DNA of 64,000 bases from Halalkalicoccus sp. CG83 (GTDB lineage Archaea; Halobacteriota; Halobacteria; Halobacteriales; Halalkalicoccaceae): NCBI RefSeq assembly GCF_037081715.1, contig NZ_JAZDDH010000001.1:2294001-2358000 (forward strand), read 5' to 3'. A program made the translations under genes and the position numbers. The notes under the pieces are model-generated. The model saw only the letters and a list, made by a program, of their open reading frames with translations, was not told the DNA's origin and did no database searches. This document shows, one piece after another, positions 48,371-59,107 of this stretch; the stretch's first letter is position 1, and each line of letters starts with the position of its first letter.

Positions 48371-48694
48371 TTACCGTTCGTCGGAGCCGGAGTCGGAGTC
48401 GGAGTCGGAGTCCGAATCCGACTCGGCGTCGGAGTGTGGGACCGTCGGCGCGGGCCGCTTGCCGAACGACGAGCGTCGCTCCTCGCTCATGCGGCGTTTC
48501 TCGACGTCCCAGTTCTCGAAGAAGCCGTACTCGGTCATCGTCGTCATCCCCGCGATCGCCGCCTGGAGGTTGATCCCGATCAGCGGGATGTCGGCGACCG
48601 TGATCAGCACGTCCGCCTGGATCATCGCTCCCTCGCGCAGAAGCACGTCGAGCACGTCGACGATCGCGTGGTCGGGCTCCTTGGTCGGTTTCAC
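48371..48694 (-). CDS. gvpM: Gas vesicle protein GvpM
   Basis: Protein of 107 residues. Residues 8-65 belong to the GvpA/J/M family (AIVDVLDVLLREGAMIQADV and LITVADIPLIGINLQAAIAG). The last 20 residues are a serine-aspartate ladder (SDSDSDSDSD), produced by a run of GAGTCG hexamers. GTG 48694 overlaps the gvpL stop. GvpM is a minor, essential protein thought to act in initial vesicle nucleation. It is the last gene of the minus-strand operon. Confidence 0.92.
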   Translation of the reverse strand: MKPTKEPDHAIVDVLDVLLREGAMIQADVLITVADIPLIGINLQAAIAGMTTMTEYGFFENWDVEKRRMSEERRSSFGKRPAPTVPHSDAESDSDSDSDSDSGSDER

Positions 48695-49524
48695 TGGGCC
48701 TCACCCCCGATCTGTGGCGCGTAGCTGTACGGCGGCCACGGGCCGGTGTAGCGTACCTCGTGGGCGGGACGTCCGTTGATCTCCTCGAGTGCCTCCCCGA
48801 TCGCCTCCTCGTTCTCGCGGGGGGCGAGCACCGAGATTTGGGCGACCCGATCGAGCTCGTCGTCCGTCTCGGTCGAGACGACGTTCGAGCCGCCGCCCGA
48901 TCGCTGGATCTCGACGGCGTGGGGTTCGACGAGTCCGTAGAGCGTCTCCGCGACCGCGTCGCGTCGCTCCTGAAGGCGCTCGTTGAGCCGCTGTTCGTAC
49001 TGCTTCTCGAGCAGGTACCCCGTCCCCTCGCTCGCCTCCTCGGTGCGTGCCGCGAGCTCCTGAAGCTCCTCGTCCCCCTCGAGAACCGTCTCGCGCATCG
49101 AGGCCTCGTCCCACCGGACCTCGATGCGGTACTCCCACCGGCCCGCGAGCGTCTCGAGGGCGTCGTCGATCTCCTCGCGACGTTCGGCGAGCCACTCGTA
49201 GACCGTCTCGTCGTCGCCTTTGATGATCGTGTCGAACCGGAAGGGAAGCGGCGTACCGAAGCGCTGGCCGGCCTCGTCGACGACCTGCTGGTGGGCCAAC
49301 AGCCAGCTTCGAACCCGCGTCATGTCGTCGGAGTCGTAGACGGAGTCGACGGGCTGGGTGACCACGCCGATCCCGTTCCGGACGAGAAGCGAGGTCGTTC
49401 CGTCCTCGATCCCCTCCGCGGTGAAGCTCTCGTCGTCGGCGGCGCGGACCGCACAGTAGAGATATCGTCCCTCGTCGAACTCGAGGTCGGCGTTCGCGCC
49501 GCCGGGGTCGGTTGTGTCGGTCAT
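48691..49524 (-). CDS. gvpL: Gas vesicle protein GvpL
   Basis: Protein of 277 residues of the GvpL/GvpF family. It starts with an acidic leader, then GRYLYCAVRA, VTQPVDSVYDSDDMTRVRSW, TPLPFRFDTII, and the C-terminal PAHEVRYTGPWPPYSYAPQIG that mirrors GvpF. In Halobacterium GvpL interacts with several other accessory Gvps. It overlaps gvpM and gvpK by four bases on each side. Confidence 0.93.
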   Translation of the reverse strand: MTDTTDPGGANADLEFDEGRYLYCAVRAADDESFTAEGIEDGTTSLLVRNGIGVVTQPVDSVYDSDDMTRVRSWLLAHQQVVDEAGQRFGTPLPFRFDTIIKGDDETVYEWLAERREEIDDALETLAGRWEYRIEVRWDEASMRETVLEGDEELQELAARTEEASEGTGYLLEKQYEQRLNERLQERRDAVAETLYGLVEPHAVEIQRSGGGSNVVSTETDDELDRVAQISVLAPRENEEAIGEALEEINGRPAHEVRYTGPWPPYSYAPQIGGEAQ

Positions 49525-49832
49525 TCCGGGAGCTCCTGATCGCGGACCTGCTCGACCGCGTCGGTGACGAGCGAGTCGAGGTCGCCCCGGAGCTGCTCGA
49601 CGTCGTCCTCGATTCCCTCTCGCTCCTTGATCGCCGCGACCTCCTCCTCGAGCGCCTGTAGCTGGGCGCCGAGCCGCTCGATCTCCTCGGGGTCGAGCTG
49701 TCCCGATTCCATCCGGCGGATCGCCTCGCGTTCCATCGTCTCGATCAGCAGCTCGATGACGGTCACGACGAGCGCGAGCAGCCCCGAGGCGCCGCCGTCG
49801 TCCTCGTCCTCGTCGAGCTCGATGTGTTTCAT
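49521..49832 (-). CDS. gvpK: Gas vesicle protein GvpK
   Basis: Protein of 103 residues with the family core LLALVVTVIELLIETMEREAIRRMESGQL, followed by a helical ERLGAQLQALEEEV region. An acidic N-terminal stretch (ELDEDEDDGG) is haloarchaeal in style. It is one of the eight genes essential for vesicle formation in Halobacterium. ATGA overlaps with both neighbours indicate tight translational coupling. Confidence 0.95.
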   Translation of the reverse strand: MKHIELDEDEDDGGASGLLALVVTVIELLIETMEREAIRRMESGQLDPEEIERLGAQLQALEEEVAAIKEREGIEDDVEQLRGDLDSLVTDAVEQVRDQELPE

Positions 49833-50338
49833 GACTCCTCCGAACCCCCCGCGTCGTCGGCCTCCCCGTCAGCGTCGCTTCCCTCATTGGCGTCGCCGTC
49901 CTCGGAGTCCTCGTCTCCAAGGAAGTCGCTCGCCTCGGCGTCGACGCTTCCCTCGTCGACCGGGGTCCGCGGATCGGGTCGCTTTCGCGGCGGGTTCTGC
50001 GGGGAGTCCGTCCCATCCTCGTTGCTCGCGCCGCCCTTGCTCGCCTCGATCCCGAGGTCGATCGTCTCGCCGTCCTCTCCCTCGAGGGGCTCGCGGCCGG
50101 AGGCCTGCTCGACCCGACGCATGTCGGTGCCGCTGGGGAAGGCGAGCCCGTACTTCGCGGCGGTCTCGAACGAGGCGATCGCCGCGCGGATCTCGATGCC
50201 GATCATCTCGGTCTCTCCGACGGTGATGGCGATGTCCGCGTTGATCACGATGCCCTTGTCGAGCACCATCTCCAGTACGTCTGCGAGGTCGGCCTGTTTG
50301 CGCGTGGGTTTCGCACTGCTTCCGTAGTCTCTACTCAT
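49829..50338 (-). CDS. gvpJ: Gas vesicle protein GvpJ, with long acidic tail
   Basis: Protein of 169 residues. Residues 14-75 are GvpA-like (LADVLEMVLDKGIVINADIA and MIGIEIRAAIASFETAAKYG). The remaining ~95 residues are disordered and acidic (GDEDSEDGDANEGSDADGEA), with a proline-rich NPPRKRPDPRTP stretch. GvpJ is a minor essential component. The tail is longer than in the well-known p-gvp GvpJ. Confidence 0.92.
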   Translation of the reverse strand: MSRDYGSSAKPTRKQADLADVLEMVLDKGIVINADIAITVGETEMIGIEIRAAIASFETAAKYGLAFPSGTDMRRVEQASGREPLEGEDGETIDLGIEASKGGASNEDGTDSPQNPPRKRPDPRTPVDEGSVDAEASDFLGDEDSEDGDANEGSDADGEADDAGGSEES

Positions 50339-51299
50339 TGTTTTCCACCTCGATCGCCTCGGATTCCTCGTCTGCGTCGGTCGTCTCGTCTTCGTCCTCG
50401 TCCGTCCGGTTCGTCGCCTCGGATCCGTTCTCGTCAGCGTCGGCCTTTCGTTTCTCCTTCGTGAACCGACGCCCGTAGATCCGCCGGGGGTTCTCCACCT
50501 TCGAGTACTTCACCTGCGCGGGTACCGTCGAGCGCCGCGTCGAGGCCGAGTCGGGGACCGGCCCCGGCGGCAGCGACGAGTACGCCGTCGGGTTCAGCGA
50601 GTCGGGCTGGCGGCCCGGCTGGCCGAGCTTCTGCTGGTTCAGCTCGTAGAGCCTGTGGAGCTTGTCGTGGGTCGAGAGCAGTACCGATCGGAACTTCTCG
50701 ACGGCGGTCTTGATCTTGTCCTCGAGGAACGCCTGGCGCGCCTCGGCGTCGAACTGGACGTGTGCACCCTCGGTGCCGATCACGTTGTCGGTGTCGAGCA
50801 GCCCGTCGTCCTCCTCGTCGTCACCCAACAGACCGCCGTCGTCATCGTCCCCGACGAGACCGTCATCGCCGAGCAGGCCGCCGTCGTCCTCGCCCTCGTC
50901 GGAGGTGACGTCGTCGACCTCGTTCTCGAGCTGCTGTTTCTCCTCGCGAAGCTCCATGAGATCGACCGCGTCCCACAGCTCCCGGAGGTTGACCGCCTCG
51001 CGGACGGTGCTCAGTTCGATCGCGGTCTCGTCCTCGTCGAGCAGTCCCTCGGGGATGTCCTCGATGTCGACGTTCTCGCCGAGCTCCTCGAGGTCGATCG
51101 CCTCGGGTACCTCCTCGAAGTCGATCGTCTCGAGGACGTCCTGGGTCTCGTCGAGAACGTCCCACAGATCCTCCGCGAGTTCGATCAGATCGGTCTGGTC
51201 GTCGTCCTCGACGATCGCCCGTTTCAGGTCCGTGAGGAGCCTCCCGATCGTCTCGGAGTGCTCCGCGAGCTGTTCGACGTTCAGGCCGTCGTCGCTCAT
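50331..51299 (-). CDS. gvpI: Gas vesicle protein GvpI with large N-terminal acidic extension
   Basis: Protein of 322 residues in the gvpI position between H and J. Residues 190-290 look like GvpI: a helical FLEDKIKTAVEKFRSVLLST, then PTAYSSLPPGPVP, and basic YSKVENPRRIYGRRFTKEKR. The first ~180 residues are an unusual acidic domain with repeated short LEEL/NLRELWDAVDLMEL motifs and GLLGDDG linkers. Known GvpI is about half this size. In Halobacterium GvpI is dispensable and affects vesicle shape. The assignment rests on position and the C-terminus. Confidence 0.7.
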   Translation of the reverse strand: MSDDGLNVEQLAEHSETIGRLLTDLKRAIVEDDDQTDLIELAEDLWDVLDETQDVLETIDFEEVPEAIDLEELGENVDIEDIPEGLLDEDETAIELSTVREAVNLRELWDAVDLMELREEKQQLENEVDDVTSDEGEDDGGLLGDDGLVGDDDDGGLLGDDEEDDGLLDTDNVIGTEGAHVQFDAEARQAFLEDKIKTAVEKFRSVLLSTHDKLHRLYELNQQKLGQPGRQPDSLNPTAYSSLPPGPVPDSASTRRSTVPAQVKYSKVENPRRIYGRRFTKEKRKADADENGSEATNRTDEDEDETTDADEESEAIEVENNE

Positions 51300-51775
51300 C
51301 GCTCTTCCTCCTCCGGCGTGAACCGGAGCTCGAGGACGCCGTGCTGGAACCGGCTCTCGACGTCGGCGACGGGCCAGGGGAGCTCGATCCGGTCGACCGA
51401 CCGGTTCTCGACGCCGATGACGAGCTCGTTTCGGTCACGGTCGAGGCCGACGGTCAGCTCGTCGGCCTCCACCTCCGGGAGGTCGGCGACGACCAGCAGC
51501 TCCTCGTCCGCGTCGTCGTATCGGACGTCGACCAGATACGGCGACTCCTCCTCGGTTCGGTGCGTCGACCCCCCGTCCTCCTCGGACGACTCCGAGGAGC
51601 CGATCCGCCCCGAGAAGCCGTACTGGGTCGTGAAGTGTCCCTTCGGGATCCGTCCGGTGCCTTGGGCGCCGCTCCTACCCTCGCGTTCGGCGTCGACCAG
51701 CGAGTCGATCACGTGTCGAATCGCGCCGAACAGGCTGGTCTCTCGGTCGTCGTGTTCGTCGTGTTCGTCGTTCAT
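51296..51775 (-). CDS. gvpH: Gas vesicle protein GvpH (Hsp20-like)
   Basis: Protein of 159 residues. The C-terminal 90 residues form an alpha-crystallin-like beta sandwich (YLVDVRYDDADEELLVVADL, VGLDRDRNELVIGV, FQHGVLELRFTP). A histidine/aspartate-rich start and a TGRIPKGHFTTQYGF segment precede it. GvpH is a small-heat-shock-like chaperone; in Halobacterium it is not essential. The gene overlaps gvpG (1 base) and gvpI (4 bases). Confidence 0.9.
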   Translation of the reverse strand: MNDEHDEHDDRETSLFGAIRHVIDSLVDAEREGRSGAQGTGRIPKGHFTTQYGFSGRIGSSESSEEDGGSTHRTEEESPYLVDVRYDDADEELLVVADLPEVEADELTVGLDRDRNELVIGVENRSVDRIELPWPVADVESRFQHGVLELRFTPEEEER

Positions 51776-52029
51776 TAGCCTTGTATCTCGATCGTCTTGT
51801 TTCGGAGTTGTTCGTGGGCCGCACGAGCGATCTCCATCTCCTCCTCGAGTTCGCGTCTGCGCTGTTCGTACTCCTCCTTCGAACGCTCTCCGAGTTCGTA
51901 GAGGAGCTGGTTCTCCTTCAGCTCGTCCTGGATCGCCTCGACGTCGTAGAGCTCGTTCATCGCGAGGGTGTGGAGCGCGTCGAGGATCGAGATGAACGGT
52001 TTGAACAGGAGGTCGTCGAGAATGAACAT
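51775..52029 (-). CDS. gvpG: Gas vesicle protein GvpG
   Basis: Protein of 84 residues starting MFILDDLLFKPFISILDALH, the standard GvpG opening. A coiled-coil helix follows (SKEEYEQRRRELEEEMEIA). ATG 52029 overlaps the gvpF stop, excluding an in-frame upstream start. It is essential for vesicle formation in Halobacterium. Confidence 0.94.
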   Translation of the reverse strand: MFILDDLLFKPFISILDALHTLAMNELYDVEAIQDELKENQLLYELGERSKEEYEQRRRELEEEMEIARAAHEQLRNKTIEIQG

Positions 52030-52658
52030 TATCTCTGGGCCCCGATCTCGATGTCCACGAAGTTGTACGGCGCCCATGGACCGGTGTACTGAACGAGCAG
52101 TTCCTCGTGGTCGTCCTCGAACTCCCCGACTGCGCGGTCGAACGCCTCGCGCTCGTCGCGGTCGATCAGGAACGAGCGGTTCACGATCAGCCGGTCGCTG
52201 AACAGGTCGTCGCTGGTTACGCTGATCGCGCGTTCGTCGAACCGTTCGGTCACCTCCTCGCGGATCGCCTCCTCGTCGACCTCGGCGCCCTCCTCGGTGA
52301 GCACCTTCAGACCGAGTTCGACGTCGTTCTCGACCTCCCGAAGCGCGCGGGTGAACGCGGGACGGGCCTCGCGCAGCACGCTCTTGAGGGTTCGGGCGTT
52401 CTTGAACGCCATTCCGTACTGCATCGGTACGACGGTCCGGCCGCCGTCGTACTGGAGCAACTGCTGGAGCACCTCGTCGTGCGCACGCGTGTTCTCGTCG
52501 GACTGCTCCGGTTCGACGGTGTCGATGTCGGTGACGAGCGCCGACAGGGTCTGGTAGCCGACGGTGTAGGCCCGCTCGGCCCCGTTCACGCCGTCGGTCT
52601 CGAACTCGACGTCCTCGCGTTCGATGACCCCGTAGGCGTATAGCGCAGTGTCTCCCAT
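52029..52658 (-). CDS. gvpF: Gas vesicle protein GvpF
   Basis: Protein of 209 residues: LYAYGVIE start, then GGRTVVPMQYGMAFKN, RLIVNRSFLIDRDE and the C-terminal LVQYTGPWAPYNFVDIEIG. GvpF binds GvpA and may control its assembly. ATG 52658 is preferred over upstream in-frame starts because the TATA box (TTATAAAC complement at 52704-52712) predicts transcription near 52680. It is the first gene of the minus-strand operon. gvpD and gvpE, which usually precede it, are missing. Confidence 0.93.
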   Translation of the reverse strand: MGDTALYAYGVIEREDVEFETDGVNGAERAYTVGYQTLSALVTDIDTVEPEQSDENTRAHDEVLQQLLQYDGGRTVVPMQYGMAFKNARTLKSVLREARPAFTRALREVENDVELGLKVLTEEGAEVDEEAIREEVTERFDERAISVTSDDLFSDRLIVNRSFLIDRDEREAFDRAVGEFEDDHEELLVQYTGPWAPYNFVDIEIGAQR

Positions 52659-52788: not shown

Positions 52789-53052
52789 ATGAGTCAAGCA
52801 AGACCCAGCACCTCAAGTCTGGCGGAAGTGCTCGACCGGATCCTGGACAAGGGTGCGGTCATCGACATCTGGGTACGCGTCTCGCTGGTGGGGATCGAGA
52901 TCCTCACCGTCGAAGCCCGTGTCGTGATCGCGTCGGTCGACACCTTCCTCCACTACGCGAGGGAGATCTCGAAGATCGAGGCCGCCGAGGAGGAGGGCGA
53001 CCTCGACGACCTCGAGGACATCGAGATCGAGGCCTCCGCCGAAGCCCAGTAG
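52789..53052 (+). CDS. gvpA: Major gas vesicle shell protein GvpA
   Basis: Small hydrophobic shell protein of 87 residues forming the 4.6-nm ribs. The core is [20 protein letters not shown] followed by [20 protein letters not shown], as in all GvpA proteins. The C-terminus is acidic ([20 protein letters not shown]). ATG 52789 gives the family start. It begins the plus-strand operon. Confidence 0.97.
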
Positions 53053-53072: not shown

Positions 53073-53537
53073 ATGTCCGCCTCCGACGACGAACAGTGTA
53101 AGGCGCTCACCGCGGACGGTGAGCGGTGTACGCGACCCGCTCAAAGCGACGGCTACTGCTATCAGCACGACTCGGACGACGAGACGATCGAGGGGGGCGA
53201 GGAGACCGAAGAAGACACAACGGACGCGGGTGAAGACCAGGAAACAGATATGGCAGACGACGAAACCAACATCGACGACACTGAGATCGGTCAGATCCGA
53301 AACAAAGTCCGAAACATCGCTGAAGACGTGGTCGGCTATCCCCTCAGCGGGATCCTCGCCATCGACCGCGAAGACGACGGCTGGCGCGTCGCCGTCGAGG
53401 TGATCGAACGAAGCAGCGTCCCGGACACGCAGGACATCCTCGGCCGCTACGAGATCACGCTGGACGAGGATCGGACGGTCACCGGCTATCGGCGGACCCA
53501 CAGATACCGGCGCGACGACATGGAACAGGACATCTAG
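53073..53537 (+). CDS. gvpO: Gas vesicle protein GvpO with N-terminal Cys/His segment
   Basis: Protein of 154 residues. The last ~90 residues are GvpO (RNKVRNIAEDVVGYPLSGIL, then WRVAVEVIERSSVPDTQD and YEITLDEDRTVTGYRR). An N-terminal segment CKALTADGERCTRP and YCYQHD provides three cysteines and one histidine, a probable zinc site. An acidic linker joins the two parts. In typical clusters gvpC and gvpN lie between gvpA and gvpO; here only 20 bases separate the genes. GvpO is essential in Halobacterium. Confidence 0.9.
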   Translation: MSASDDEQCKALTADGERCTRPAQSDGYCYQHDSDDETIEGGEETEEDTTDAGEDQETDMADDETNIDDTEIGQIRNKVRNIAEDVVGYPLSGILAIDREDDGWRVAVEVIERSSVPDTQDILGRYEITLDEDRTVTGYRRTHRYRRDDMEQDI

Positions 53538-53932: not shown

Positions 53933-53986
53933 CCGGAACCTCCTGCAAGCACCCTTTTTAAGTGAGTCCGTTGATACGGGAGAGTG

Positions 53987-56302
53987 ATGGGTGAGGAATC
54001 GACAACCGATAACGAGGATGGTACCGGTGTGCGCGTATTACTTCCCGATGGCGGTGAACCCGAGGACGACGACGAGGCGGGTGGGGGCGACGAAGCGGAC
54101 GAGAACGGCGACGGTGGGAATGACGGAGACGGCGAAGTAGAAACGCCCGAAGAAAACGACGAGGAAGAAGAGTCCGAAACTGACGGGGAGGACGAACCGG
54201 AGGGCGATGGAGAGGACGACGAAGCTGAGGACGAAGCGGACGGGGAAAATGGAGAAGCCGAAGGCGAAGGTGAAGCGTCAGAAGAGGACGACGGGAACGG
54301 GGAGGACGAACCGGAGACACACGAGCTGACGGTAACCGTCGAGAACGAGGATGGCGAGCCCGTTCCGGGGGCACCCCTTACGGTAGAGAGCAAGGACATG
54401 GGCCTCATCGAGGGGTTTCTCGACGAGGCCGAAGACGCAGAAACGGACGACAGCGGCGAAGCCTCCTTCGAGTTGGAGAACGCCGAATACAGCGTCCAAA
54501 CCGAAATCGACGACGAGCAGGCCGAAGAGCGGGTCGATATCGACGGTGACGACGAGGAGGTCACGCTCTCTCTCGACGTCGAAGAGGGTGAAGGAGAAGA
54601 AGACGAAGAGGGGGACGAGGGTGGAGAGGAAGAAGGCGAAGAGGAAGCGGAGGATGAAGGTGACCAAGAGGCGGATGGAGAAGAAGGAGAAGCCGACGAA
54701 GAGACGTACGAGCTAACGGTAACCGTCGAGAACGACCAGGGCGAGTACATTCAGGGAGCCACCGTCACGGTCGAGGACAAGGACGGCGACGCGTTCGAAT
54801 CGGGTGAACGGCAGGATACCGGGACCGACGGCGAGGCCACCTTCCTCCTTGAAAACGGCGACTACGCCGTCGAGGTCGACGCCGACGAGGGGAGCGCCGA
54901 AGAGCAGTTCACCCTCGAGGACGACGAGGAGATCACGCTCACCGTCGTTCCGGACGAGGAGACGTACGATCTGATGGTGACCGTCCAGAACGCCGAGGGC
55001 GACCCCGTCCCAGGGGCCTCGATCACGGTCGAAAGCGGGGACAAGGGCGTCATCGAGGGCTTTCGTGGGCAGCCCTCCGAGGCCGAAACCGACGATAGCG
55101 GTCAGAGTTCCTTCGAGTTAGCGGAGGGCCAGTACAGGGTCACGGTCGAGGCCGACAACGAAACGAACGACCAAGCAGTCGAGATCGAGGGCGGGGACGA
55201 AGAGGCCACGCTCACCCTCGACGTCGAGCAGGAAGAAGAGGAAGAGGAGGAGGAGGGCCGGAAAGGTCCGAAGGAGGCCGAGGGCGAGGTCGACGAGGAC
55301 GAATCCGCAAGCCACGGGACCGACCGTGGGTCGACAGTGCTGTATCTCGATCTCGAAGGACTGTTTCTCGACCTCCTCGGACTCGAGGTCGATCTCCACG
55401 AGGTCGTGCTGGACATCCGAGCGATCACCGGACCGGGGAACCTGCTCGGGAACCTGCTGTCGGCGGTCGCGGGGCTGTTGGACCCGCTGTCAGGGCTGCT
55501 CAATCGCCTGCTCAACTCCGTCCTGAACCTGTTGAGCTACATCACCTCGCCGCTCAAGTGGCTCTGGAACCAGATCAAAAAGCCGTTCAAGTGGCTGCGC
55601 AGCCTCGGAACCCGTATCGCGAACACGCTTTCAGCCCCGATCAGCGCGCTACGCAGTGCTGCGAGCCGGGTCTGGGACGTAGTGACCTCGCCGATCAGCG
55701 CGCTTCGAAGCGCGTTGGGTCGGGTCTGGGGCGTCCTGAGCTCGCCGATCAGTGCACTTCGGAACGCGCTGGGTCGGGTCCGAAACGCGTTGACCTCGCC
55801 GATCAGCTGGCTGAAAAGCGTCGGGAGTCGCGTTCGGGACGCCCTGGGAGTGCCGGCCGACGGGCTGCGTGCCGTCGTGAATCGCCTCGGGAACTCCGTG
55901 GAAAAAGCGATCGCCCGACTGCGTGGTCTGATCGGCGGAGGCGCTGAAGACGAAGGGGAAGCAGACGACGAGAACGGTCTGCTGAGCGGCATCGTCGGCA
56001 GTATCTCGGATCGAGTAAGCAGCGTCTCCGAATGGGCGAGCAGCATCGGAGACAGGATCTCGAACCGGATGAGTGACGTCGCAACCAGAATTTCGAACTG
56101 GGTACGCAACGTAGCAAGCAGGATCTCGAACTGGATACGCAACGTCCTGAACTGGCTGACCGACCCGGTTAGTATGCTGCTCTCGTCCATCCCGGTCGAG
56201 GAGATGCTCAACGAACTGATCAAGCAACTAGTCGGCGAGTCGGAGGGCGATGAGCCGACCAACGACGAGTCGAACGGAACGGAGACCGAAGCAGCCGAGT
56301 GA
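53987..56302 (+). CDS. Large acidic protein: carboxypeptidase-regulatory-like repeats plus amphipathic helix repeats
   Basis: Protein of 771 residues with no signal peptide. (1) Acidic leader, residues 1-110. (2) Three ~85-residue beta-sandwich-like repeats (starting near 54319, 54709 and 54964), each opening with a form of ELTVTVEN.G and resembling CarboxypepD_reg or Ig-like modules. (3) From about residue 445 a helical region: four exact 18-residue repeats of the type SPISALRSALGRVWGVLS (55634-55849) and three 11-residue repeats RISNWVRNVAS (56054-56152). These periods are whole numbers of helix turns, as in surface-binding amphipathic helices. CCTTTTTAAG about 30 bases upstream is a TATA box. 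Confidence 0.75.
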   Translation: MGEESTTDNEDGTGVRVLLPDGGEPEDDDEAGGGDEADENGDGGNDGDGEVETPEENDEEEESETDGEDEPEGDGEDDEAEDEADGENGEAEGEGEASEEDDGNGEDEPETHELTVTVENEDGEPVPGAPLTVESKDMGLIEGFLDEAEDAETDDSGEASFELENAEYSVQTEIDDEQAEERVDIDGDDEEVTLSLDVEEGEGEEDEEGDEGGEEEGEEEAEDEGDQEADGEEGEADEETYELTVTVENDQGEYIQGATVTVEDKDGDAFESGERQDTGTDGEATFLLENGDYAVEVDADEGSAEEQFTLEDDEEITLTVVPDEETYDLMVTVQNAEGDPVPGASITVESGDKGVIEGFRGQPSEAETDDSGQSSFELAEGQYRVTVEADNETNDQAVEIEGGDEEATLTLDVEQEEEEEEEEGRKGPKEAEGEVDEDESASHGTDRGSTVLYLDLEGLFLDLLGLEVDLHEVVLDIRAITGPGNLLGNLLSAVAGLLDPLSGLLNRLLNSVLNLLSYITSPLKWLWNQIKKPFKWLRSLGTRIANTLSAPISALRSAASRVWDVVTSPISALRSALGRVWGVLSSPISALRNALGRVRNALTSPISWLKSVGSRVRDALGVPADGLRAVVNRLGNSVEKAIARLRGLIGGGAEDEGEADDENGLLSGIVGSISDRVSSVSEWASSIGDRISNRMSDVATRISNWVRNVASRISNWIRNVLNWLTDPVSMLLSSIPVEEMLNELIKQLVGESEGDEPTNDESNGTETEAAE
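55634..55849 (+). repeat. Four tandem 54-bp repeats (18 codons)
   Basis: Units at 55634, 55688, 55742 and 55796, each encoding a variant of (S/A)PISALRSALGRVW-GVLS. The period is exact, and most changes are at surface positions such as W/R and G/N. They lie inside the large acidic protein. Confidence 0.9.
56054..56152 (+). repeat. Three tandem 33-bp repeats (11 codons)
   Basis: Units at 56054, 56087 and 56120 encoding RISNRMSDVAT, RISNWVRNVAS and RISNWIRNVLN. Eleven residues make three helix turns, the period used by apolipoprotein, perilipin and synuclein surface helices. Confidence 0.9.
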
Positions 56303-56449: not shown

Positions 56450-56923
56450 ATGAGTGATAACGGAAACGACAACGGTAACGGTACTGACAACGGAAACGAC
56501 AACGGTAACGGCGACGGTCCGTCGATGCTCGAACCCCTCGAATCGGCGATCGGAGACATCGATTTCGAAAAGATATTCGAGGGAACACAACTGGAGGACG
56601 CCTTCGACGAGGACGAGGAAAACACCGGGGTAGCGATCGGGCGCGCCCTCGGCGAGATCGCCGGTCAAAAGCTCGGCGAGATCATCGGTCGAGAGATCGC
56701 GGAGATGATCGTAAAGGAGCTATCCGAGAGCGAGGAGGACGAAGAAGGGAAAGATGAGGGAGACGAAGAGGAGGAGGACGAAGAGGAGGAGGACGAAGGG
56801 AACGGCGACGAGGAGAACGGCGACGAGGGGGACGACGAAAACGGAGCCGAGGGGGACGACGAAAACGAGGATGAGAGCGACGAGGGAGAGGACGGTGAAG
56901 ACGGGTCGGACGGGGATGACTGA
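56450..56923 (+). CDS. Acidic glycine-zipper protein 1 (157 aa)
   Basis: N-terminal asparagine/glycine/aspartate repeats (residues 2-24), then PLESAIGDIDFEKIFEGTQL and DEDEENTG, then a helix with glycines at residues 64, 68, 72, 76 and 80 (AIGRALGEIAGQKLGEIIGR). The final ~65 residues are almost pure Glu/Asp/Gly. GxxxG ladders pack helices against each other, often in membranes or homo-oligomers. No known family. It is the first of three consecutive genes with this motif. Confidence 0.7.
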   Translation: MSDNGNDNGNGTDNGNDNGNGDGPSMLEPLESAIGDIDFEKIFEGTQLEDAFDEDEENTGVAIGRALGEIAGQKLGEIIGREIAEMIVKELSESEEDEEGKDEGDEEEEDEEEEDEGNGDEENGDEGDDENGAEGDDENEDESDEGEDGEDGSDGDD

Positions 56924-57077: not shown

Positions 57078-57869
57078 ATGAGTGAAACCAACAACGGCGA
57101 CGACGATACCGGTAGCTCGATGCTCGAGAGCGTCGACACGGAGGAACTACTCGAAGGCACGAAATTGGAAGACGCCGTCGACGAGGACGACAAGAACCTC
57201 GGCGAGGCGATCGGCCGCGCGATCGGTGCGATCATCGGCAGGCAGATCGGCGAACTGGTCGGGCGGATGGTCACGGAACGGCTCCGCGGAGGGAGCAAAG
57301 AGGACGAGGAAGAGGAAACACACGAGCTGACGGTATCGGTCGAGAACGAAGACGGCGATCCCGTTGAGAATGCGACCGTTACCGTCGAAGACGAGGACAG
57401 TGGCCTCCTGGGAAGTCTGATCGGGGGCGGTGAAACCGACGAAACCGACGAGGATGGCGAGGTGACCCTCCAGCTCCAAAGCGGTGACTACACCATCGAA
57501 GCCGACGCCGAGGGCGGCAGTGCCGAAGACGAGATGACCATTGAAGGCGACGACGAAGCGGTCTCGCTGACTATCGAGGAGGAAGGAGACGAGGACGAAG
57601 AAGACGAAGGCGAGGAAGAGGAGACCGGGGACGAAGACGAAGACGAAGGCGAGGGCGAAAGCGACGTAGACGAGGAAGAGGGGACCGAGGACGAAGACGA
57701 ACGCGAGGAGACGGAGGAAGACGAGGAGTCCGAAGAGGATGAAGATGGAGACGACGACGAACCGGAGGACGATGAAGACGAGGAGGACGAAGGCGACGAA
57801 GAGGATGAAGACGACGAGGAGGAAGGCGAGGACGAGAACGGTAACGAGGACGACGAAGACGAAGAATGA
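57078..57869 (+). CDS. Acidic glycine-zipper protein 2 with regulatory-like repeat (263 aa)
   Basis: Residues 10-70 match protein 1: LLEGTKLEDAVDEDDKNLG, then AIGRAIGAIIGRQIGELVGR with glycines at 46, 50, 54, 58 and 62. Residues 81-168 are one carboxypeptidase-regulatory-like module (ELTVSVENEDGDPVENATV), very close to the repeats of the 771-residue protein. The last ~95 residues are a Glu/Asp tail. It therefore links the zipper family to the large repeat protein and argues that the genes work together. Confidence 0.7.
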   Translation: MSETNNGDDDTGSSMLESVDTEELLEGTKLEDAVDEDDKNLGEAIGRAIGAIIGRQIGELVGRMVTERLRGGSKEDEEEETHELTVSVENEDGDPVENATVTVEDEDSGLLGSLIGGGETDETDEDGEVTLQLQSGDYTIEADAEGGSAEDEMTIEGDDEAVSLTIEEEGDEDEEDEGEEEETGDEDEDEGEGESDVDEEEGTEDEDEREETEEDEESEEDEDGDDDEPEDDEDEEDEGDEEDEDDEEEGEDENGNEDDEDEE

Positions 57870-57919
57870 GGACGTAAAAGGATGATCATAAGGAGCGCTC
57901 TATCGACGAGGTGGCGATC

Positions 57920-59107
57920 ATGAGTAACGAGTCGATCATCGAGGCCATCGATACCGGGACGCTGCTCGAAGCCATCGACATCGGTGATCTACTCGAAGAA
58001 GCCGATCTCGGCGAGCTGGCCGAACGAGAGGACGTCAACGTGGCGATCAAGGAGATCGCCGCGGTTCTCGGTCGCGAGTTCGGGGCGGCACTCGGCCGAG
58101 AACTCGGGGAGGTCATCGCACGAGCGATCTCCGAGCGCCCCTCGATCGACGAGCTAATCGAGGACGTTAAAGGGGCGATCGGAGACGCGTTCAGGGAGCT
58201 GTTCGTGAACCCGGACGCTCGGGCGTCACTCAAGGAGGACCTCAAATCCATCGGCAAGGACCAGCTCTCCGGCGATCTCGTCGCAGACGCTGTGAGTGGT
58301 ACACTCGGCGATGAGGGTGAGAGTGAAGACGAGACGGACGATGAACAAGCGGAAGAAGCCGAGGAGAGCGAGTCCGTGGACTCGGAGAGCGACGAGGAAG
58401 ACGAGGAAACCGAGGAAGCGGACGAGTCGGAAGAGGAGCAGGACGCCGAGGAGTCCGAGGAAGGAGACGGTAACGAGAGCGACGGCGAAGACGACGAGGA
58501 CGACGGTGACTCGCTCGGCAGCCAGATCGGCATCGGGGATGCCATCAAGGAGGGACTCAGCAGCGACGATGGCGACGAGTCGGAAGCGGACGAGGAGACC
58601 GAAGAGGACGCCGAGGAAGGAGACGGTGACGAGGGGTCGGAAGGAGACGAGGCCGCGGAGGAAGACGAAGGAGATGAGGACGAGGAAGACGAGACCGAGG
58701 ACACGGACGAGGAAGACGAAGGAGATGAGGACGAGGAAGACGAGACCGAGGACACGGACGAGGAAGATGAAGAGGATGAAGAGGAAGACGAAGGAGATGA
58801 GGACGAGGGAGGCGACGAAGAGGAGGACGAGGAAGGCGAAGGAGAAGGCGACGAAGAGGAGGAAGACGAAGGAGATGAGGACGAGGAGGCGGAGGGTGAG
58901 GAAGACGAGACCGAGGACACGGACGAGGAAGATGAAGAGGACGACGACGTTCCCGAGACCGCCGACGAGCTCGCGGACCTCTCCTACCGCGAGCTACAGT
59001 CGCTCGCGAAGGAACGGGACATCCAGGCCAACCTCAGTCGCGAGGAGCTAACCGAGGAGCTCAGCGACGTGCTCGGGATCGAGAACGAGAACGAGGACGA
59101 GGAGTAG
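57920..59107 (+). CDS. Acidic glycine-zipper protein 3 with SAP/Rho-N-like C-terminus (395 aa)
   Basis: Start ATG 57920 (GTG 57911 also in frame). The N-terminal region IEAIDTGTLLEAIDIGDLLE precedes the zipper VLGREFGAALGRELGEVIA (glycines 51, 55, 59 and 63). A second helical region extends to about residue 130. The middle 220 residues are a highly repetitive acidic tract, including an exact 51-bp duplication. The C-terminal ~40 residues (ELADLSYRELQSLAKERDI and LSREELTEEL) resemble SAP/Rho-N/HeH domains, which bind nucleic acid or proteins. Confidence 0.7.
   Translation: MSNESIIEAIDTGTLLEAIDIGDLLEEADLGELAEREDVNVAIKEIAAVLGREFGAALGRELGEVIARAISERPSIDELIEDVKGAIGDAFRELFVNPDARASLKEDLKSIGKDQLSGDLVADAVSGTLGDEGESEDETDDEQAEEAEESESVDSESDEEDEETEEADESEEEQDAEESEEGDGNESDGEDDEDDGDSLGSQIGIGDAIKEGLSSDDGDESEADEETEEDAEEGDGDEGSEGDEAAEEDEGDEDEEDETEDTDEEDEGDEDEEDETEDTDEEDEEDEEEDEGDEDEGGDEEEDEEGEGEGDEEEEDEGDEDEEAEGEEDETEDTDEEDEEDDDVPETADELADLSYRELQSLAKERDIQANLSREELTEELSDVLGIENENEDEE
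58661..58762 (+). repeat. Exact tandem duplication of 51 bp
   Basis: Copies at 58661-58711 and 58712-58762 are identical, encoding 17 acidic residues each. A third, degenerate copy begins near 58864. Identity at synonymous positions points to a recent duplication. Confidence 0.9.

Follow-up and report, generated by a model that had tools for sequence, protein, structure and literature searches.

GvpC proteins, which usually strengthen the gas-vesicle shell by binding its outer GvpA surface and raising the collapse pressure, are the closest described counterparts of the protein reported here. In cyanobacterial GvpC, one 33-residue repeat spans four monomers of the shell protein GvpA, each of about 12.7 A (PMC9994262). 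Many haloarchaeal gvp clusters lack gvpC, and several haloarchaea with gvpC-less clusters are reported as Vac-negative, with no visible vesicles (PMC4390858). Where a GvpC gene is present, it classically lies between gvpA and gvpN. In the window (the whole 64,000-nucleotide stretch of Halalkalicoccus sp. CG83 DNA analysed here), a gene for a 771-residue repeat protein instead lies directly after gvpA-gvpO (Table 1); neither gvpC nor gvpN gave a match in the window's cluster, and nothing occupies the sites that they classically take between gvpA and gvpO. We read this protein, with slightly better than even confidence, as a member of an undescribed haloarchaeal gas-vesicle shell or assembly family that stands in for GvpC but is not homologous to it.

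Other gvp genes lie elsewhere in the source genome. A solitary gvpN (G000:C1:1278911-1279699) is separated from the gvp cluster by about 1.07 Mb, with no further gvp gene in the 19 kb surrounding it. Five more gvpA-like genes lie outside the window cluster (G000:C1:634753, C1:1088457, C3:154482, C3:250246, and C4:942), one of which encodes a protein identical to the window GvpA, and C3 carries gvpJ- and gvpH-like pieces as well. At the gvpI position (window 50331-51299) we observed a 322-residue protein with repeated GLLGDD-type acidic segments, which is longer than classical GvpI and has no Pfam match.

Table 1. Features of the gvp cluster, the repeat protein gene, and the adjoining partner genes (window positions).
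Feature	Position	Strand	Evidence
gvpF-G-H-I-J-K-L-M, divergent from gvpA	48371..52655	-	profile and family matches
gvpA, major shell protein	52789..53052	+	PF00741, tblastn
gvpO, halophile type	53073..53537	+	PF05800 (E 2e-25), NF045806
771-residue repeat protein gene	53987..56302	+	ORF list
Three transthyretin/Ig-like beta domains (CarboxypepD_reg) with acidic linkers	54314..55213	+	PF13620
Family core, residues 449-500, GSTVLYLDLEGLFLDLLGLEVDLHEVVLDIRAITGPGNLLGNLLSAVAGLLD	55328..55483	+	alignments A1, A3; AlphaFold
Amphipathic helix running into the repeat array	55484..55630	+	
Four 54-bp / 18-residue units, one proline per unit	55631..55846	+	Tandem Repeats Finder, wheel analysis
Decayed fifth 18-mer unit	55847..55900	+	
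Acidic break separating the 18-mer and 11-mer arrays	55937..55981	+	sequence
Decayed 11-mer helix	from 55982, before the 11-mer units	+	
Three 33-bp / 11-residue units	56048..56146	+	Tandem Repeats Finder
C-terminal amphipathic segment SSIPVEEMLNELIKQLV	56147..56239	+	family comparison
P0002, partner: glycine-zipper helix and acidic tail	56450..56923	+	family A6, G000:C1:2350555
P0003: glycine-zipper helix, one CarboxypepD_reg domain, acidic tail	57078..57869	+	
P0004: glycine-zipper helix, long acidic tail	57911..59107	+	

The open reading frame spans 53984-56302, with its ATG at 53987 and a TATA-like TTTTTAAG approximately 25-32 bp upstream of that ATG. PF13620 matched the protein in three stretches (54314-54568, 54704-54940, and 54956-55213) with an E-value of 9e-25 and 87.3 bits against a curated cut-off of 32.3. 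The 771-residue sequence has no apparent signal peptide, as would suit a protein of a cytoplasmic organelle. The four consecutive, gap-free 18-residue units read SAPISALRSAASRVWDVV, TSPISALRSALGRVWGVL, SSPISALRNALGRVRNAL, and TSPISWLKSVGSRVRDAL, and the 11-residue units read GDRISNRMSDV, ATRISNWVRNV, and ASRISNWIRNV. Tandem Repeats Finder detects both arrays (54 bp with 77% matches and 33 bp with 78%). The initial annotation had called these units perfect: the number of units (four of 54 bp and three of 33 bp) and their common reading frame hold, but the repeats are exact only in length and frame and are inexact in sequence, with pairwise identities of just 59-76% (DNA) and 50-72% (protein) among the 54-bp units and 64-85% (DNA) and 45-82% (protein) among the 33-bp units.

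The same annotation had proposed that each repeat keeps one constant face, and the helical wheel and hydrophobic moment calculations bear this out: the face is hydrophobic, with 18 residues making five helical turns and 11 making about three. Treated as one helix, residues 513-650 (138 residues) have a hydrophobic moment of 0.485, with its maximum at exactly 100 degrees and a z of 10.4 relative to shuffled sequences, and the 11-mers have a helical periodicity z of 6.3. The coherence of the array reached 0.53 over 90 residues, compared to at most 0.33 in the other open reading frames tested, which comprised the other long ones of the window and 366 from further stretches of the source genome. 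On the wheel of the 18-mer, isoleucine, leucine, valine, and proline fill one side and arginine stands at both borders. Polar and apolar sides are sorted, unlike the unsorted wheels that the initial annotation had named as one contrary outcome. Over 49 arrays, arginine and lysine edge the hydrophobic face, mostly 60-140 degrees to either side of its centre, and aspartate and glutamate lie opposite to it (mean 171 degrees). This combination of a basic interface and an acidic polar centre is that of a class A amphipathic helix. The array has a net charge of +17 within a protein whose net charge is -177.

Proline placement is also ordered. Across the family, proline spacings cluster at 8, 11, 14, 18, and 22 residues, all of which are near whole turns, so that the prolines come to lie on one helix face, which is the hydrophobic one. 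The resultant of the proline phase is 0.72, a value inflated by sequence relatedness; over 2000 control trials it averaged 0.09 and never exceeded 0.27. This proline face is constant across relatives, although their arrays differ.

AlphaFold predicted four beta strands followed by a long helix for the core (pLDDT 77, pTM 0.42) and long separate helices for the C-terminal half (pLDDT 70, pTM 0.28). The array was thus modelled as an extended helix and not as the compact globular bundle that the initial annotation had named as the other contrary outcome, although overall confidence in the model was low. In such models a low pTM means that packing is unpredicted, not that it is excluded. Foldseek comparison of either model to the PDB returned no match with E < 1. 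Sequence searches of the PDB matched only designed coiled coils in the helix part of the core, and the array gave a weak match to FtbJ (E 0.004).

When relatives were searched with the C-terminal half of the protein, the conserved part of the family proved to be the 52-residue core that precedes the array and not the array itself. The core motif, LDLxGLFLDLLGLEVDL...GNLLGNLLS, has invariant columns in alignment A1, and the 771-residue protein, itself one of the rows, matches the core with an E-value of 6e-29. Pfam has no model for the core, and the motif was not found printed in the literature searched; the core family is an undescribed, widespread domain absent from Pfam. Arrays of 18-mers occur in Halococcus thailandensis and relatives, and arrays of 11-mers of the GKPREWLSGLF type occur in Natrinema, Natronococcus, and others. 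Many members with the same core have no array at all (e.g. in Haladaptatus, Halogeometricum, and some congeners of the source organism), which indicates that the array is dispensable for the family. Within one genus, the members of two species (L013 and L014) have arrays that differ by a single 11-mer unit. The C-terminal segment SSIPVEEMLNELIKQLV is discernible in most family members, with or without an array. A tblastn search of a plasmid collection with array and core gave no match, yet it also missed a known core gene on a Haladaptatus plasmid (L099), probably through low-complexity filtering, and so carries no weight as a negative.

The core is also found at the end of secreted bacterial proteins, mostly actinobacterial and Chloroflexi, where it carries a pair of cysteines. 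Over 81 aligned rows both cysteines are absent in 31, both are present in 49, and one only is present in 1, an agreement inflated by relatedness; their joint presence or absence in 80 of the 81 fits a disulfide that the cytoplasmic versions have lost. The 771-residue protein is without the pair. We also observed that an undescribed domain, CxILxLxLGPLxLxLLGL...GNLLGNLLCAVAGLLD, closes many secreted bacterial proteins (L106, L112, L115, L122, L137, L168, and others); its paired cysteine suggests a disulfide. Three small core-domain proteins of Kribbella (L127, L128, and L132) have no apparent signal peptide, and their genes lie near gvp genes.

The distribution of the core was compared to that of GvpG and GvpC across a sample of 293 genomes from the order, each at least 90% complete. 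True GvpG was defined by an E-value of at most 1e-11, a cut placed at a clear gap in the match list, and weaker matches were left out as likely coiled-coil noise. The core is present in 100 genomes and true GvpG in 122, with 98 genomes holding both: GvpG accompanies 98 of the 100 core-positive genomes compared to 24 of the 193 core-negative ones (Fisher P about 1e-51, from counts without correction for phylogeny), and the core is present in 98 of the 122 gvp-positive genomes. Multi-repeat haloarchaeal GvpC occurs in eight genomes, all of them gvp-positive and core-negative, and in none of the 98 with both core and GvpG (P 8e-7 among gvp-positive genomes, again without phylogeny correction). 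PF05465 found no match in the source genome or in the other core-positive genomes, apart from a weak single match in one (G072, E 7e-4), and it recovered seven repeats in the positive control, pNRC100. The link to gas vesicles put forward in the initial annotation is thereby much strengthened: core and gvp genes turn up together, and within this sample the core family and GvpC exclude each other. The genome counts are clustered by family and are not phylogenetically independent. Three families (f4, f5, and f13) hold both core and GvpC species, and one genus (g25) includes a species of each. Linkage alone does not account for co-occurrence in another family (f8), where core gene and gvp cluster are widely separated (e.g. 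> 1 Mb in G292). Core and GvpC are both missing from 16 gvp-positive genomes, and the seven of these that we inspected contain otherwise ordinary gvp clusters.

Downstream of the repeat protein gene lie three genes for glycine-zipper proteins. The Ig-like domain of P0003 is of a type common to it and the 771-residue protein. The tails of P0003 and P0004 contain long acidic tandem repeats (window 57575-58950). The zipper partner family occurs in 87 genomes, of which 86 are core-positive, and adjoins the core gene; in Halococcus a similar zipper-like helix is fused to the C-terminus of the core protein (by E-values from a tiny database). One genome has core and zipper without true GvpG (G197) and another has GvpG and zipper without the core (G241), both possibly recent losses.

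Being nearly confined to gvp-bearing species and never found with GvpC in the sample, the core family is probably a separately evolved GvpC replacement. We hypothesize that the core domain and the glycine-zipper partners anchor the protein at the gvp machinery or the shell, and that the phase-locked amphipathic array follows a surface, in the simplest case that of the GvpA ribs, its hydrophobic face turned inward and its arginines on either side of the contact. The array would stiffen the shell or control its shape, and the acidic stretches and Ig-like domains, remaining in the salty cytoplasm, would keep the vesicle soluble. The extent of contact would depend on the length of the array, which may vary by whole helical turns. 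We infer shell binding, its direction, and a mechanical role from these features, and likewise the placement of the helix on the GvpA shell instead of on lipid or a different partner. An 18-residue helix measures 27 A, which is 6% more than two GvpA monomers and makes a strict lattice register doubtful for the window array; a single 11-mer does not match one monomer, and three 11-mers (33 residues) equal the length of four. Several observations count against a GvpC substitute: the array-less members, the 16 genomes with neither protein, the Vac-negative gvpC-less species, the core in secreted bacterial proteins, the AlphaFold pTM of just 0.28, and the phylogenetic dependence of the genome counts.

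Lipid is the best-known partner of class A helices. The array could accordingly be a lipid-binding helix by which vesicles, or the site where they are assembled, are tethered to the cell membrane or to inclusions of lipid or polymer, with core and zippers contacting the gvp machinery. The broad hydrophobic face with its basic interface and opposing acidic residues would fit this, as would the strongly basic array inside an acidic protein, but lipid binding alone leaves the mutual exclusivity with GvpC unexplained and no membrane partner is linked to the gene, and we regard it as unlikely. An assembly factor rather than a coat, acting as a scaffold or ruler during vesicle nucleation or growth, would resemble in principle the tape measure of phage tails. 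Phage tail tape-measure proteins (PHROG 58 and others) share long amphipathic helical repeats with the array, which matches their profiles (phrog_58, E 1e-12), and the single-unit difference between close relatives is what a ruler might show. The reversed array sequence, however, matches the same profiles equally well (6e-13), so that the match reflects pattern and not descent; there are no phage genes in the cluster, whose context is gvp, and the many array-less members speak against an assembly ruler, which we consider improbable.

The protein could also be secreted or displayed on the cell surface and share the neighbourhood without any relation to gas vesicles. Related cores terminate both Tat-type haloarchaeal proteins and bacterial secreted proteins that have a signal peptide and a cysteine pair, and Ig-like domains are common outside cells; the 771-residue protein has neither signal peptide nor cysteine pair, and core and gvp genes co-occur even where unlinked, which leaves this explanation a slim chance. 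The slimmest of all is that core family and gvp genes have only been gained and lost together without working together. The clustering of genome counts by family would allow for it, but a large family keeps core and gvp cluster together though they lie far apart, and GvpC and core alternate within families and within one genus.

Replacement of GvpC by the core family therefore remains our preferred reading, and it makes the family a specific, testable candidate for what may strengthen gvpC-less vesicles. More generally, and here with a little less than even confidence, we propose that a second, unrelated haloarchaeal system of gas-vesicle reinforcement, made of the core protein and its zipper partners, substitutes for GvpC in the majority of species that bear gvp genes, its proline-phased arrays lengthening and shortening by whole turns to tune the shell; the Kribbella cores would suggest a reach beyond archaea. 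Engineers adjust how vesicles respond to ultrasound by altering GvpC (PMC9994262), and if the proposal is true, an unrelated substitute with modular units of 11 and 18 residues would offer a new engineering handle.

Among known systems, the secreted bacterial C...GNLLC-core proteins (Nocardioides, Kribbella, and Chloroflexi) share a homologous 52-residue core with about 50-60% identity in alignment A3, but differ in their signal peptide, cysteine pair, and lack of an array. Apolipoprotein-type class A helices have the same basic interface, acidic polar centre, and proline-punctuated whole-turn repeats; the 771-residue protein is prokaryotic and joins its array to an unrelated core, and its lipid binding is putative. 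Cyanobacterial GvpC has one conserved helix face (leucine, phenylalanine, and arginine) and a 33-residue repeat equal to three 11-mers (PMC9994262), but its repeat sequence is different and it has no core; a search of 59 genomes with PF01304, its Pfam family, gave no match, nor did the control, so that we give this negative no weight. Haloarchaeal GvpC (PF05465, Halobacterium salinarum pNRC100) is likewise gvp-encoded, with a repeated amphipathic helix, no signal peptide, and acidic C-terminal parts. The core has no sequence or profile similarity to GvpC (profile comparison probability 1%) and does not resemble GvpA (0.3%). The repeats of haloarchaeal GvpC are acidic and 32 residues long (net -53 over 256 residues) with a weaker moment that is off register, 0.24 at 103 degrees, whereas those of the 771-residue protein are basic and 18 residues long and peak at exactly 100 degrees. 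The two families nonetheless have the same phyletic role, and each holds it in different genomes of the sample.
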